Source: Natronomonas salina (GTDB lineage Archaea > Halobacteriota > Halobacteria > Halobacteriales > Haloarculaceae). From it: DNA of 64,000 nucleotides. The translations under genes and the position numbers were made by a program. The notes under the pieces were generated by a model that was not told where the DNA came from, did no database searches, and was given only the letters and a program-made list of their open reading frames with translations. This document shows, piece after piece, positions 21,245 through 38,260 of this stretch; position 1 is the stretch's first letter; each line of letters begins with the position of its first letter. Location of the stretch: the NCBI RefSeq assembly GCF_013391105.1, contig NZ_CP058335.1, positions 992,001 through 1,056,000 on the forward strand, in the 5' to 3' direction.

Positions 21245-22423
21245 TCAGTCGCCGTCGTCGTCGCCGTTGCCGCGGAGTTCCGCGGCCAGTTCGTCGGCGA
21301 GCAGGCCGCCGATCTTCGACTTGCTGCCCCGGTGCTTCTGGACCGTTTCGGGGCGGACGACCAGCACGCGGGTGGTGTCCTCGCCCATCACGCTGGCGTC
21401 GTTGGCGACGACGAACGCCAGACCGGCCCGCTCGAGGGTCTCCCGGGCCTGCGCGACCATCGCGTCGTCGTCGCCGCTGGACTCGACCTTGAAGCCGACG
21501 ATGGCGAGGTCCAGGTGCTCCGAGCGGACCTCGTCGATGAGCTTCGGCGTCGGCTCGAGGTCGAGCGTCAGGTCCTGCCCGGAGCGGATCTTCTCGGGGG
21601 CGGCGTCGACCGTGTAGTCGCCGATGGCGGCGGCGGAGACGAGCGCGTCGGCGTCGTCGGCGACCGACTGGACGGCCTCCAGCATCTCCGCGGCGCTCTC
21701 GACGGGCCGGACGTCTGCGTAGGGGACCTCCGGGCCGTCGTGGACCAGGGTGACGTCGGCGCCGCGGGCGTAGCAGGCCCTCGCGACCGCCCGGCCGGTC
21801 CGGCCCGACGCGCGGTTCGAGATGACCCGGACGGGGTCGATGGACTCGCTGGTCGCGCCGCTGGTGACGACGACATGGTCGCCGTCGAGCGGCCGGTCGC
21901 CGGCGGCCCGCGCCACGTCGACGACGATGGCCTCCTCGGTCGCGATCTTCGCCTTCCCCTCCTCGAGCCGCGGGTCGACGAAGTCGACGCCCCACGACTC
22001 CAGGGTCTCGATGGCCTCAAGCACCCCCGGGTGGTCGTACATCGGCGCGTGCATCGCGGGCGCGACGACGACCGGGACGTCGGCGCCGAGGGCCGTCGTC
22101 GCGCAGGTCGTCACCGGGGTGTCGTCGACCGCGCTCGCGACCTTGCCGATGGTGTTGGCCGTCGACGGCGCCAGCAGCAGAACGTCGGCCCAGCCGTCGT
22201 AGCCGCAGAGCTCGACGTGCTCGACCGATCCCGTGATCTCGGTCACGGCGGGCCGGTCGGTCGCGAACTCCAGCGACCAGGGGTGGACGATCCCCCGGGC
22301 CGCGCCGGTCATCACCGCGCGGACCTCGGCTCCCTGCCGCCGGAGTTCGTGGGCCAGTTCCACCGTCTTCACCGCCGCGATGGACCCCGAGACCCCCAGC
22401 GCGACGTTGACGCCATCGAGCAT
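21245..22423 (-). CDS. coaBC: Bifunctional phosphopantothenoylcysteine decarboxylase/phosphopantothenate-cysteine ligase
   Basis: A 392-residue two-domain enzyme of coenzyme A synthesis. The N-terminal CoaC half is a flavodoxin-like decarboxylase: VALGVSGSIAAVKTVEL, the LLAPSTANTIGK loop and the PAMHAPMY motif. The C-terminal CoaB half (from about residue 178, VVVTSGATSESIDPVRVISNRASGRTG) ligates cysteine to phosphopantothenate and contains the Lys-rich RSGQDLTLDLEPTPKLI segment. Domain order and length match archaeal CoaBC. It starts 127 bp from the TrxR-like gene upstream on the same strand. Confidence 0.93.
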   Translation of the reverse strand: MLDGVNVALGVSGSIAAVKTVELAHELRRQGAEVRAVMTGAARGIVHPWSLEFATDRPAVTEITGSVEHVELCGYDGWADVLLLAPSTANTIGKVASAVDDTPVTTCATTALGADVPVVVAPAMHAPMYDHPGVLEAIETLESWGVDFVDPRLEEGKAKIATEEAIVVDVARAAGDRPLDGDHVVVTSGATSESIDPVRVISNRASGRTGRAVARACYARGADVTLVHDGPEVPYADVRPVESAAEMLEAVQSVADDADALVSAAAIGDYTVDAAPEKIRSGQDLTLDLEPTPKLIDEVRSEHLDLAIVGFKVESSGDDDAMVAQARETLERAGLAFVVANDASVMGEDTTRVLVVRPETVQKHRGSKSKIGGLLADELAAELRGNGDDDGD

Positions 22424-24944: not shown

Positions 24945-25721
24945 TTACTGCTCGTAGTCGCCGCCGAACTTCATCAGGAAGTAGCCGAGCCCGAGCGTCG
25001 AGCCCATCGCGATGAAGGTCGCCGTGGTGAGCGACAGCGCCTGGCCGGGAATGGTGATGGCGGGCCCCTCGGAGCCGCTCTCGAGCTGGACGGTCTCGAC
25101 GTCGTCGCCGATGGCGACCCCGCCCTTCATGCCCTGGCCTTCGTGGGGGTTGCACTTGTAGGTCGTGATGCCGGCGGCTTCCTCGGTCGCCTCGAACTCG
25201 TAGGTCTCGCCCTCGCCGTCGACCGGACTGCCGCTGTCCAGTTCTGCGGGCCCCTCGTTGGCGATCACGTTGTGGCCGCCGCCCTCGCCGGTCCACTCCC
25301 AGGTGATCGTCGTGCCGGGGGAGACCCAGACCCCCGCCGGGTCGAACGCCAGGCCGTCGCCCGCGCCGACCGAGATGGTCACGGAGTCCTCACCGCGCGC
25401 GTCCTGGACGCTGTCATTGCTGAACCCGTTGGCGTCGCTGAGGTACGAGCCGAAGTCCGGAACCTCGTTGCCGCCACCGCCGCCACCGCCGCCGTCGGAC
25501 TCGTTGCCGCCGCCTCCCGTCTCGTTCCCGCCGCCCGTCTCGTTGCCACCGCCGCCACCGGTTTCGTTGCCACCGCCACCGGTCTCGTTCCCGCCCGTCT
25601 CGTTGCCGCCGCCGCCCGTCTCGTTGCCCTCCTGGGCGGCAGCCGCCTGGCTACCCGCGGCCAGCGTCGCACCGCCAGCGGCCAACAGGAACCGCCGCCG
25701 ACTCACGTCGTTCGTACTCAT
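24945..25721 (-). CDS. Halocyanin (membrane blue copper protein)
   Basis: A 258-residue secreted copper protein. The N-terminus MSTNDVSRRRFLLAAGGATLA is a Tat signal with twin Arg at residues 8-10. A Gly/Asn/Thr low-complexity linker with repeated GGGNETG units runs from about residue 32 to 85. The plastocyanin-like domain carries the copper ligands in order: His (GGHNV), Cys (YKCNP), His (NPHEG) and Met (GQGMKG). One C-terminal transmembrane helix (LTTATFIAMGSTLGLGYFLM) anchors it on the cell surface, where it would carry electrons. Its promoter region overlaps the left end of a hairpin repeat. Confidence 0.92.
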   Translation of the reverse strand: MSTNDVSRRRFLLAAGGATLAAGSQAAAAQEGNETGGGGNETGGNETGGGGNETGGGGGNETGGGNETGGGGNESDGGGGGGGGNEVPDFGSYLSDANGFSNDSVQDARGEDSVTISVGAGDGLAFDPAGVWVSPGTTITWEWTGEGGGHNVIANEGPAELDSGSPVDGEGETYEFEATEEAAGITTYKCNPHEGQGMKGGVAIGDDVETVQLESGSEGPAITIPGQALSLTTATFIAMGSTLGLGYFLMKFGGDYEQ

Positions 25722-25775
25722 ACCTGCCCCTTGCGCCCACCCCGTACTCAATCCATCGAACTTTTCGCACCGACC

Positions 25776-25929
25776 TTTTTGCACGGGCGGCCTGCGGCCG
25801 CCCGGCAAAAACGTCGATGAAAAAGCGGCGGCGGGTTCCCTCCGGTCACCCGCCTTGCCTCCGCGCTCCCTGAGGTCGCGCGGAGTGAACCGCTTCGGGG
25901 GCGACCTCCGGACGCCCCCTCGCGGATGC
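25776..25929 (+). repeat. Hairpin-array repeat element, copy A
   Basis: A 154-bp element of four consecutive hairpins. Hairpin 1 is TTTTTGC, a bulged A, a 9-bp GC stem (25784-25792 with 25796-25804, loop TGC) and GCAAAAA. Hairpin 2 is GGCGGGT/ACCCGCC with an 11-nt loop TCCCTCCGGTC (25830-25854). Hairpin 3 is CTCCGCGC/GCGCGGAG with loop TCCCTGAGGTC (25859-25885). Hairpin 4 is GGGGGCG/CGCCCCC with loop ACCTCCGGA (25897-25919). It ends GCGGATGC. The same end blocks occur in copies C and B. It lies between the halocyanin start and copy C. Confidence 0.75.
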
Positions 25930-25981
25930 TCAACCCGATAGACATCTCCGTAGCTGCAGCAGTCGGTGAGTATATCGAGAA

Positions 25982-26170
25982 GCATCCGCGCGCGAGCGGA
26001 GCGAGCGCGCGGTTCACGGCGGCGAACGAAGTGAGCCGCCGTAGCGCCCGACGACTACCGCGCGCCTGAGCGGAGCGAAGGTGCGCGACAGGAGGAGGGC
26101 GCGCATATTTTCCCCAAGTTTTTGCCCGACCGAGCGCGGCGCGCAGCGCCGCGCGAGGGAGGTGCAAAAA
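25982..26170 (-). repeat. Hairpin-array repeat element, copy C (inverted)
   Basis: The same family in opposite orientation to copy A. On the minus strand it reads TTTTTGCA, a GC hairpin (26134-26142 with 26146-26154, loop TGC), GGCAAAAA, and ends with GTGAACCGC, a hairpin, GGATGC. Plus-strand hairpins: CCGCGCGC/GCGCGCGG with loop GAGCGGAGCGA (25986-26012); ACGGCGGC/GCCGCCGT with loop GAACGAAGTGA; CGCGCGCCT/AGGTGCGCG (one G-T pair) with loop GAGCGGAGCGA. It begins 9 bp after the PAPS-reductase-like stop codon. Copies A and C together form a 395-bp composite with inverted ends. Confidence 0.72.
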
Positions 26171-26179
26171 GTGGGGTTC

Positions 26180-27148
26180 CTACATGTAGCCCAGGTCGCG
26201 GAGGCGCTCCATGAGGTCCTCCTTGTCCTGGGCGCGGCCGGCGCGTTCGGTGGTGTTCTCGAGGTCCTGCAGCCACGCGGGCTCCTCGTCGCTCTTCTCG
26301 GTGGAGATCTCGCTGCCGAGCGAGCGGAAGCCGGCGAAGTACTTCGGCGAGACCGGGATGTCCTCGTGGGTGAGGTCGTTCGGCAGGTCGTCGTAGTCCT
26401 GCGGGACGTAGCCGTCGTCCGGGAAGTCCTCGACGGTCTCGGGGACGACGTAGAACCAGAAGGCGTCCCAGACGTCGCCCTCGTCGAACTGCAGGATGGG
26501 CTGGACGCGGTCGTGCGGCGGGTAGATGTCGGGGTCGTGCCGCGGGCTGAAGAACGTCTCGTCGGCGCGGGCCTCCTGCTCGTCCCAGCGGATGCCGGAG
26601 ATGATGCCGTCGATGTCGTGCTCCTCCAGGGTGTTGTTGAGCGCGACGGTCTTCAGGAGGTGGTTGCCGACGTAGGTGTCCAGCAGGAACGGGAACTCGT
26701 CTTCCTCGTACTCGAGGATGTCGCGGACGTGGTGCTGGTTGTGCTCGGAGAGCGCGTCGATGGGGATGTCGTCGCCGGGGTCGAGGTCGTTCTCCTCGAC
26801 GTACTGGCCGACGTCGTCGTTGCGCGCGAAGAGGACCTCCATGTCCCACTCCTCGGCCCAGCGGTCCACGAAGTCGAGCAGTTCGTCGAAGTGCTGGTAG
26901 TGGTCGATGAAGACCGCCGGCGGCAGGTCGTAGCCGTACTGCTCGGCGACCTCCTTGACGAAGTAGAGGGTGAGCGTCGAGTCCTTCCCCCCGGTCCACA
27001 TGATGGCGGGGTTCTCGTACTCCTCGAGACCGGTGCGGACGACCTCGATGGCCTTCTCGATCTTGTCCTCGAGGTTCGGGTAGTCCTCGGGGTCCTCGCC
27101 TTCGCCGTCGCTGTAGTCGACGTCGACGTAGTCGGGGAATTCGTTCAT
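26180..27148 (-). CDS. PAPS reductase/CysD-like adenine nucleotide hydrolase
   Basis: A 322-residue protein of the phosphoadenosine phosphosulfate reductase superfamily. The PP-loop is in MWTGGKDSTLTLYF (about residues 50-63). GIRWDEQEARADETFFSPR and RVQPILQFDEGDVWDAFWFYVVPE match the region that in CysD and PAPS reductases binds the nucleotide and the dimer partner. The catalytic C-terminal ECGIH-type Cys motif of PAPS reductases is absent, so an ATP-dependent activation role (CysD-like) is more likely than sulfate reduction. No CysN partner is adjacent. Its 5' flank holds a perfect palindrome (27154-27171). Confidence 0.82.
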   Translation of the reverse strand: MNEFPDYVDVDYSDGEGEDPEDYPNLEDKIEKAIEVVRTGLEEYENPAIMWTGGKDSTLTLYFVKEVAEQYGYDLPPAVFIDHYQHFDELLDFVDRWAEEWDMEVLFARNDDVGQYVEENDLDPGDDIPIDALSEHNQHHVRDILEYEEDEFPFLLDTYVGNHLLKTVALNNTLEEHDIDGIISGIRWDEQEARADETFFSPRHDPDIYPPHDRVQPILQFDEGDVWDAFWFYVVPETVEDFPDDGYVPQDYDDLPNDLTHEDIPVSPKYFAGFRSLGSEISTEKSDEEPAWLQDLENTTERAGRAQDKEDLMERLRDLGYM

Positions 27149-37003: not shown

Positions 37004-38038
37004 ATGGAAACACGCAAAGTGCAGCGGCTTGGGCCGTCGACGCTGGCGATGACCCTCCCCGCCGAGTGGGCCGCCGCCCAGGACGTCGAGAAAGGCGACG
37101 AGGTGTCGCTGCGGATGGGCAGCAAGGGGACGCTCACCGTCATGCCGGAGTCGGTCCAGCAGGAGGAGAGCGAGGCGGTCATCCACGCCCAGAACCTCGA
37201 CGCCGACGCCGTCGAGCGCGCCATCGTCGCCCAGTACGTGCTGGGCCGCCGCATCATCCACGTCGAGGTCGAGGACGGCGGCACCCTCGACTCCGCGCAG
37301 ATCAACGCGGTCTATAACGCCGAGACGCAGCTGATGGGCCTCGGCGTCATCGAGGAGACGCCCGAGCGCATCGCCATCCGCTGTTCGGTCGACCCCGAGG
37401 ACTTCACCCTCGACAACCTCCTGGAGCGCCTGGAGTCCACCGGCTCGACGATGCGGAACGAGGCCATCAAGGCGCTCGCGCACGGCAACCCCGACCTCGC
37501 CCAGCGCGCGCTCAACCGCGAGCGGCAGGCCAACAAGATCTTCGTCCTGCTCCTGCGCCTCATCTTCACCGCCTACCAGAACCCCAACCTCGCCCGCGCC
37601 GTCGGCCTCGACTCCGGCTTCCCGCTCATCGGCTACCGCTCCATCGCCAAGAACCTCGAACTGACAGCCGACAACGCCGAGGACATCGCCGAGATCGTCC
37701 TCGAGACCGAGGGCCACTCACTGAACGTCGACCAGGCGACGATGCGCCGCATCCGGGAGTTCACCGACCAGGTCAACGAGATCACCGAACTCGGCGTCCG
37801 CGCCGCCGTCGAGCGCGACTACGACATGGCCATCGAGACCCGCCAGAAGTTCGCCGAGGTCCGCAACCGAGAGATCGAGATCCTCGACGACCTCGAGGAG
37901 ATGTCCAACGAGGACCTCCTCCGCGTGCGAGAGGTACTCGTCAGCCTCGGCCAGACCGCCCAGTACGCCGTCCGGAACGCCGAGATCGCGACGAACCTCG
38001 CGCTCAACGAGGAGAGCGAGCACGTGACGATTCAATAG
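37004..38038 (+). CDS. PhoU-like regulator with N-terminal AbrB/SpoVT domain
   Basis: A 344-residue regulator. Residues about 1-50 form an AbrB/SpoVT DNA-binding domain: RKVQRLGPSTLAMTLPAEWA, then KGDEVSLRMGSKGTLTVMP. The remaining 290 residues contain two PhoU helical repeats with the conserved metal-binding (D/E)xxxD motifs, as in NALAHGNPDLAQRALNRERQANK and NEDLLRVREVLVS. Haloarchaeal PhoU-AbrB fusions act in phosphate signalling. No pst genes are adjacent, so its target is not clear. It has inverted repeats and tandem TATA elements upstream, consistent with autoregulation. The stop codon is followed four bases later by hairpin repeat copy B. Confidence 0.9.
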   Translation: METRKVQRLGPSTLAMTLPAEWAAAQDVEKGDEVSLRMGSKGTLTVMPESVQQEESEAVIHAQNLDADAVERAIVAQYVLGRRIIHVEVEDGGTLDSAQINAVYNAETQLMGLGVIEETPERIAIRCSVDPEDFTLDNLLERLESTGSTMRNEAIKALAHGNPDLAQRALNRERQANKIFVLLLRLIFTAYQNPNLARAVGLDSGFPLIGYRSIAKNLELTADNAEDIAEIVLETEGHSLNVDQATMRRIREFTDQVNEITELGVRAAVERDYDMAIETRQKFAEVRNREIEILDDLEEMSNEDLLRVREVLVSLGQTAQYAVRNAEIATNLALNEESEHVTIQ

Positions 38039-38043
38039 AACCG

Positions 38044-38260
38044 TTTTGCACGGCGGGCCTCGCTCTGCTCGGCCCGCCGGCAAAACCGTTCATGAAAAAG
38101 ACACGTCGGCCCTCCCTCAGGAAGACTCCCTTCGGTCGTCTTCCAGGGCTCCCGCTCGCTTCGCTCGCGGGACCTCCGGTCGGGCCTTGGTCCCGCGCTC
38201 CCGCCGATCGCGTGGTGAACCGCCTCGGGGGTGACCTTCGGACACCCCCTCGGCGGATGC
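38044..38260 (+). repeat. Hairpin-array repeat element, copy B
   Basis: A 217-bp element beginning 6 bp after the stop codon of the PhoU-like gene. Hairpin 1 is TTTTGC, bulged A, CGGCGGGCC/GGCCCGCCG with loop TCGCTCTGCTC, then GCAAAA. Hairpin 2 is GGAAGAC/GTCTTCC with loop TCCCTTCGGTC (38120-38144). A third one (TCCCGC/GCGGGA) has loop TCGCTTCGCTC. A last one is GGGGGTG/CACCCCC with loop ACCTTCGGA (38227-38249). It ends GCGGATGC. Compared with copy A, stem bases change in pairs while loops and ends remain. Confidence 0.75.

Follow-up and report, generated by a model that had tools for sequence, protein, structure and literature searches.

Why hairpins scattered through a haloarchaeal genome should carry tips of a single 11-nt design (GA, a 2-bp mini-stem, a triloop and a second GA), nearly always on the same strand of an element, is the question raised by a 64-kb stretch of Natronomonas salina DNA at G000:C1:992001-1056000, referred to here as the window. 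All eight tips listed in a preliminary description were found in the window and verified as carrying the design: two in element A (25837 and 25867, minus strand), three in element B (38060, 38127 and 38156, minus strand) and three in element C (25994, 26024 and 26068, plus strand), although B (38039..38260) falls outside the interval 25830-26086 to which the description had assigned them. Only these eight are returned from the window by a search for GA-NN-NNN-NN-GA loops with a C-closed mini-stem and a strong outer stem (at least 6/7 pairs); a further loop at 21432, GAGACCCTCGA, has 6/7 outer pairs but no contiguous stem beside the loop. A tip-hairpin covariance model, with a training set that included some of the eight, recovers exactly the same tips in the window (E <= 6e-5). 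The third tip of C has one mismatch in its outer stem, and the description of most triloops as C-GNA-G stands for six of the eight tips, with TCA in A and AGA in B deviating.

Chance or base composition as the origin of the design was ruled out by Markov, reversed-pattern, shuffle and slid controls. Of the 50 hairpins that combine an 11-nt loop with arms of 8 bp or more in 461 kb of the source genome, 24 carry the design compared with 0 in three Markov controls, the 461 kb being sampled as 20 stretches, several of which were picked around known matches, so that the sample is not random. A set of 99 distinct hairpins was selected only by GA..C...G..GA and six outer pairs, a rule that fixes the inner six outer pairs and leaves free the outermost pairs and the first pair of the mini-stem; the latter is nevertheless Watson-Crick in 92/99 (shuffled mean 32.6, maximum 51), divided between GC (37), CG (30) and AT (25), with TA at 0. 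A C-G pair flanks GA/GA in 91/99 of these hairpins, the triloop is GNA in 78/99, and the mini-stem has two pairs in 92/99 (its C-G closing pair being required by the search). The 2x2 gap around C-GNA-G reads GA/GA in 56/64 instances with 7-bp arms, but in 121/5938 without arms (p = 5e-81). In a covariation test of 40 hairpins, 99% of cells are paired (29-46% in slid controls) and nine of ten pairs change on both sides, the outer stems and mini-stem covarying around an invariant GA/GA and a near-invariant GNA.

The strand bias claimed for three copies extends well past them: across 59 element copies, 61 GA tips are found vs 1 TC tip, and plain triloops read GNA in 62 cases vs TNC in 12, closed mostly by C-G. 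Given the covariation, the fixed GA/GA and GNA, and the restriction of the tips to one strand, the GA strand is therefore under selection to fold alone, forming a stem, a C-G pair, GA/GA, a 2-bp mini-stem and a GNA triloop, which bears out the one-strand folding that had been proposed. The folded cap is very likely a tandem of sheared G-A pairs joined to a C-GNA-G triloop, a combination that would make a very stable single-strand cap. In DNA, a GNA loop closed by two G-C pairs gives a mini-hairpin of exceptional stability, with a Tm of 78 C for GCGAAGC (PMC4686876), and the tip core X-C-GNA-G-X' is of the same type, GAGCGAAGCGA containing GCGAAGC exactly; whereas those mini-hairpins are known from oligonucleotides, the motif described here is natural, genomic and covarying, with GA/GA flanks. 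A kink-turn (L7Ae site) was rejected, as GA/GA forms a symmetric 2x2 gap and none of the 99 hairpins has a bulge, a spacing that the search itself required. T-A was never observed as the first mini-stem pair in this set though A-T is common, perhaps because GATC is avoided or because stacking imposes a rule. In some hairpins two tandem GA steps are nested, for example GGCGAC-GA-GC-GA-CC-GCA-GG-GA-GC-GA-GTCGCC (L023).

The tips are parts of a larger oriented element of ~150-300 nt, in which the linkers are conserved but stems, and also whole hairpins, have been replaced. From the left, or head, the order is GCATCC, hairpin 1 (HP1), GCGGTTC(AC), hairpin 2 (HP2), GTAGCG..CGACGACTA, an optional hairpin 3 (HP3), ACAGGAGGA.., a T-tract, GTTTTTGCC, hairpin 4 (HP4) and GTGCAAAAAGTGG; the right end has the form T5-hairpin-A5, and HP4 includes a bulged T. 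A second (type II) right end reads GGTCG, GTTCG or GGTTC, and the left arm changes to match (CGACG, CGAAG or GAACG). A further helix surrounds HP3, its sequence varying while its pairing is kept.

Element C (25982..26174, plus strand) is of type I, reading GCATCC-HP1-GCGGTTCAC-HP2-GTAGCGCCCGACGACTA-HP3-ACAGGAGGAGGGCGC-ATATTTTCCCCAAGTTTTTGCC-HP4-GTGCAAAAAGTGG. Its tip hairpins, all on the plus strand, are HP1 (25986..26012, with GAGCGGAGCGA at 25994-26004), HP2 (26016..26042, with GAACGAAGTGA at 26024-26034) and HP3 (26060..26086, with GAGCGGAGCGA at 26068-26078), scoring 40.0, 36.6 and 32.2 bits, respectively, with the covariance model. Sequence comparison identifies the helix enclosing HP3 (26044..26102, plus strand) as GCGCCC (26044-26049) paired with GGGCGC (26097-26102), with an internal loop of GACGACTA and ACAGGAGGA; in other copies this helix differs yet is paired, as TCGC/GCGA or GCGCGCG/CGCGCGC. 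The right-end hairpin HP4 of C (26112..26176, plus strand), CCCCAAGTTTTTGCC ... GTGCAAAAAGTGGGG, presents T5 toward transcription from both sides, and 5 nt separate the end of the element from the stop codon (26180-26182) of a facing gene for a 322-aa protein (26180..27148, minus strand). Element A (25771..25929, minus strand), delimited by linkers common to dispersed copies and by distance, points away from C and has its head GCATCC at 25929 and a type II right end, GCAAAAAGGTCG, ~50 nt ahead of the start codon of a halocyanin-like gene (24945..25721, minus strand). The two minus-strand tip hairpins of A lie at 25859..25885 (32.5 bits; GACCTCAGGGA at 25867-25877) and 25829..25855 (29.3 bits; GACCGGAGGGA at 25837-25847), and its HP4 (25777..25811, minus strand) reads, from the sequence, TTTTTGCC-stem-C(GCA)G-stem-GTGCAAAAA with the conserved bulged T. 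Element B (minus strand), also of type II, includes a GGTCCCGC..GGAAGAC two-hairpin module; its three tip hairpins (38052..38174, minus strand) carry GAGCAGAGCGA (38060, in HP4), GACCGAAGGGA (38127) and GAGCGAAGCGA (38156), and its right end adjoins the stop codon (38036-38038) of a gene at 37049..38038 (plus strand).

The placement seen in the window recurs elsewhere, with gene positions taken from our own gene caller. Of the 48 copies that face a stop codon, 42 have their right end -1 to 6 nt from it, and of the 9 that precede a same-strand gene, 8 have it 39-50 nt ahead of the start codon, while the left end stands at no fixed distance from genes (7 to 893 nt). The 3' ends of tRNA genes, as read by eye, also adjoin the right end in another genus (L234, L239 and L247). 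The right end of the element adjoins functional boundaries: a facing stop codon, the 3' end of a tRNA or the upstream border of a promoter region. Past facing stops, T5 starts after a few to ~15 nt and, since T5 faces transcription from both sides, the right end is predicted from its sequence to act as a two-way T-tract terminator. In a Haloferax reporter, 95% of transcripts were terminated by a T stretch (PMC7237163), and the element shares with such haloarchaeal terminators a T5 right after the stop codon and a hairpin near the 3' end, but differs in that its end is two-way, palindromic and contained within a repeated element. TGA is rare among element-adjacent stops (3/23 vs 261/444, p = 1.5e-5). 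Gene ends of the form TTC-TAG are common beside elements (10 copies vs 6/444 sampled gene ends), an excess that suggests a target preference. A doubled CCCACTTTT..CCCACTTTTTGCAC has also been observed on the gene side (L025 near 3211, L027 near 6209, L038 and L053), as if a second partial right end stood between element and stop codon.

A census with the covariance model gives ~84 tips in the source genome (3.75 Mb) and between 13 and 82 in each of ten other haloarchaea; five other Halobacteriota genomes yielded none. The HP4 pattern has 25 copies in the source genome vs 0 for its reverse; in its exact form it recurs in G288 (47), G252 (18) and G131 (12), and is absent from five other genomes of the same genus. 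The head pattern occurs in 117/194 Halobacteria genomes, with up to 23 per genome and ~0 in the reversed control; some single matches are not hairpins while high-copy genomes are clear, and matches elsewhere in the phylum, beyond the class, do not form hairpins. Plasmid and phage records held no similar element, and 20 IMG/VR contigs with the HP4 pattern were discarded as apparent chance matches of lower G+C (0.29-0.57) with almost no tips. Within the range tested, this oriented, modular, multi-copy palindromic element is confined to the class Halobacteria. The 322-aa gene carries an element at its end in several Natronomonas species, Halobacterium, Halorarius, Halorientalis and Haloglomus, the GA strand lying opposite to the gene, while some other genomes have none there. 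In two other genera a single copy is conserved at the 3' end of a probable thermosome gene (C-terminal MGGMM; L055, L056, L058, L059 and L060). Orthologous copies within genera (in Halorientalis, and between L239 and L247) suggest that inheritance has been vertical to a large extent, and movement not frequent.

Several explanations for such an element have been weighed. A repeated structured RNA, in which a GA-strand transcript would run from close to GCATCC as far as the internal T-tract and a protein would read the sheared G-A tips, is possible though rather doubtful. The conserved linkers, covarying helices, well-placed T-tracts and enclosing helix with its conserved internal loop are RNA-gene-like; with RNA energy parameters the GA strand is the more stable by 2.0-2.6 kcal/mol, which accounts for the strand asymmetry at least as well (a DNA set, which appears to lack GNA and sheared-GA terms, separates the strands by 0.4-0.8 kcal/mol); tip hairpins with one internal mismatch show G-T vs A-C at 7:1; and A/T-rich TATA-like stretches lie upstream in some copies. 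However, unselected outer pairs have no such excess (14 vs 12) and G-U occupies < 1% of cells in the 40-hairpin set; no consistent promoter motif was seen by eye upstream of the heads, and in about half of the copies no gene on the same strand lies immediately upstream; C-GNA-G triloops prevail, GNRA and UNCG tetraloops being almost absent from the elements; and Rfam 15 at gathering score returns two tRNAs only from the window, with elements A and C unmatched at E < 0.1. The stability of GNA in DNA, the few RNA tetraloops, the lack of a consistent promoter and the rare G-U lead us to favour DNA rather than RNA as the relevant folded strand. It is improbable that the elements are host terminators only, as immobile two-way palindromes selected at gene ends with their repeats arising via gene conversion: T5 right ends adjoining stops and tRNA ends, and vertical conservation across genera at the 322-aa gene and thermosome ends, agree with such a role, yet it leaves unexplained the fixed head and linkers 150-300 nt away, the nested hairpin modules, the one-strand tips and the 39-50 nt spacing before starts.

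A classical REP/RAYT or PATE element, with hairpins cut by a Y1 (HUH) single-strand transposase as the preliminary description had suggested, is very unlikely, despite the apparent absence of terminal inverted repeats, the near-terminal palindromes, the one-strand folding and the tens of copies, and despite such PATEs being known in Haloquadratum (PMC3119063). The recommended search for a Y1-type TnpA elsewhere in the source genome yields one Y1_Tnp, in an ordinary IS605 (tnpA beside tnpB; L029 1336-3104, G000:C1:1761671 onward), the ends of which carry unrelated CCCCTCTTCAGGCGGGG-type palindromes with no GA tips nearby (this one IS605 being compared by eye). Y1 count does not track element count across 12 genomes: G288 has 47 HP4 copies and one Y1, G036 has 21 tips and no Y1, and G037, G220 and G292 have 4-5 Y1, the two of these with an HP4 count, G037 and G220, having none of the pattern. 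A Y1/RAYT transposase was accordingly rejected as the mover. The literature consulted, mostly outside subscription journals, held no earlier description of the element, and only PATEs, SMRs and bacterial REPs were found. The PATEs and SMRs of Haloquadratum are short, non-coding, multi-copy palindromic elements; PATE palindromes derive from IS605 ends, while SMRs have terminal inverted repeats and insert into other palindromic elements (PMC3119063). The element resembles both as a short non-coding multi-copy haloarchaeal palindrome, with modules here inserting in core elements; unlike PATEs, it has no visible IS605 similarity, and its stems are free, its tips fixed, its right end set at genes and its range class-wide, and unlike SMRs it shows no terminal inverted repeats between its ends by eye (PMC3119063). 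Bacterial REPs are defined by a GTAG/CGTC tag beside the stem, TY/CMA loops and an associated RAYT, and REP/BIME units share with the element intergenic position, hairpins, tens of copies, orientation and covarying stems; the element, however, is without tag, TY/CMA loops or RAYT and is a multi-hairpin structure of 150-300 nt (PMC3733652, PMC2817692). REP/RAYT membership was rejected on its linkers as well, the tip hairpins being preceded by GCATCC, GGTTCAC and GACTA, and the GTAG after HP2 having no stem directly following. The element further resembles integron attC sites in conserving structure over sequence, in folding on one strand and in adjoining a stop codon. Those sites, which are bacterial, are structures conserved over sequence that fold as a single strand and start right after a stop codon; the element differs in placing its right end also at promoters and tRNA ends, and an unsystematic look revealed no integrase or core site.

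The explanation that we prefer, held with about even confidence, is a non-autonomous palindromic DNA element that is copied or swapped as a folded single strand and has a two-way T-tract terminator as its right end. The element would move, or its hairpins would swap between copies, as folded single-stranded DNA, through enzymes supplied in trans; at rest, its right end would work as the terminator, and a terminator end would make insertion against a gene end tolerated or useful. The comparison of candidate enzymes covered Y1, which is uncorrelated with the element, and identified no transposase or recombinase. More broadly, and as a tentative proposal, these elements may constitute a new class-wide form of mobile DNA in Halobacteria, in which modular, nested hairpin elements would be mobilised and reshaped in the form of folded single strands of DNA, recognised by the tandem sheared G-A/C-GNA-G cap, and placed by some enzyme with the terminator end at gene ends, tRNA ends and promoters. 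If this is right, many haloarchaeal genes get their 3' end from these elements, and natural selection acts in genomes on a DNA cap known from test-tube oligonucleotides. With the elements set so strictly at stops, tRNA ends and promoters, it becomes testable both what places them and whether they are read as DNA or RNA. The elements may also account for GAGCGAAGCGAGC-like stretches in haloarchaeal intergenic DNA.

Movement or swapping as single-stranded DNA is consistent with the insertion of hairpin modules in related species and with the turnover of stems at fixed sites. In G296 and G297 (the latter sequence being partly N), an element stands at the same gene end between flanks that are 96-98% identical, while the hairpins differ. 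A module of ~100 nt is present at CGCC|CACGTTTTT in L191 and absent from its relative L195, and a shorter one is present at CGCC|CACGTTTTT in L198 and absent from L194, so that modules have been gained or lost; the same kind of module occurs at the same two linkers in other copies, with a possible GTG repeat on the flanks. Only such module insertions were seen; a clean site lacking the entire core element did not turn up, most compared pairs being too diverged. Further modules have been observed: at L012 13600-13680, L024 11130-11210 and L134 HP4, a separate two-hairpin module, TTCGGAAATCGCC..GGCGATTTCCGCAGCCCATCAGAAGTGC..GCACTTCTGAGGACG, is placed between HP2 and HP3, with a related version inside HP4 in Haloglomus, and a short module, CATACCATGCGAACGGGC..GCCCGTGAGCAGA, is nested in the right-end hairpin in several copies of one genus (L233, L238, L240, L241, L243 and L245).
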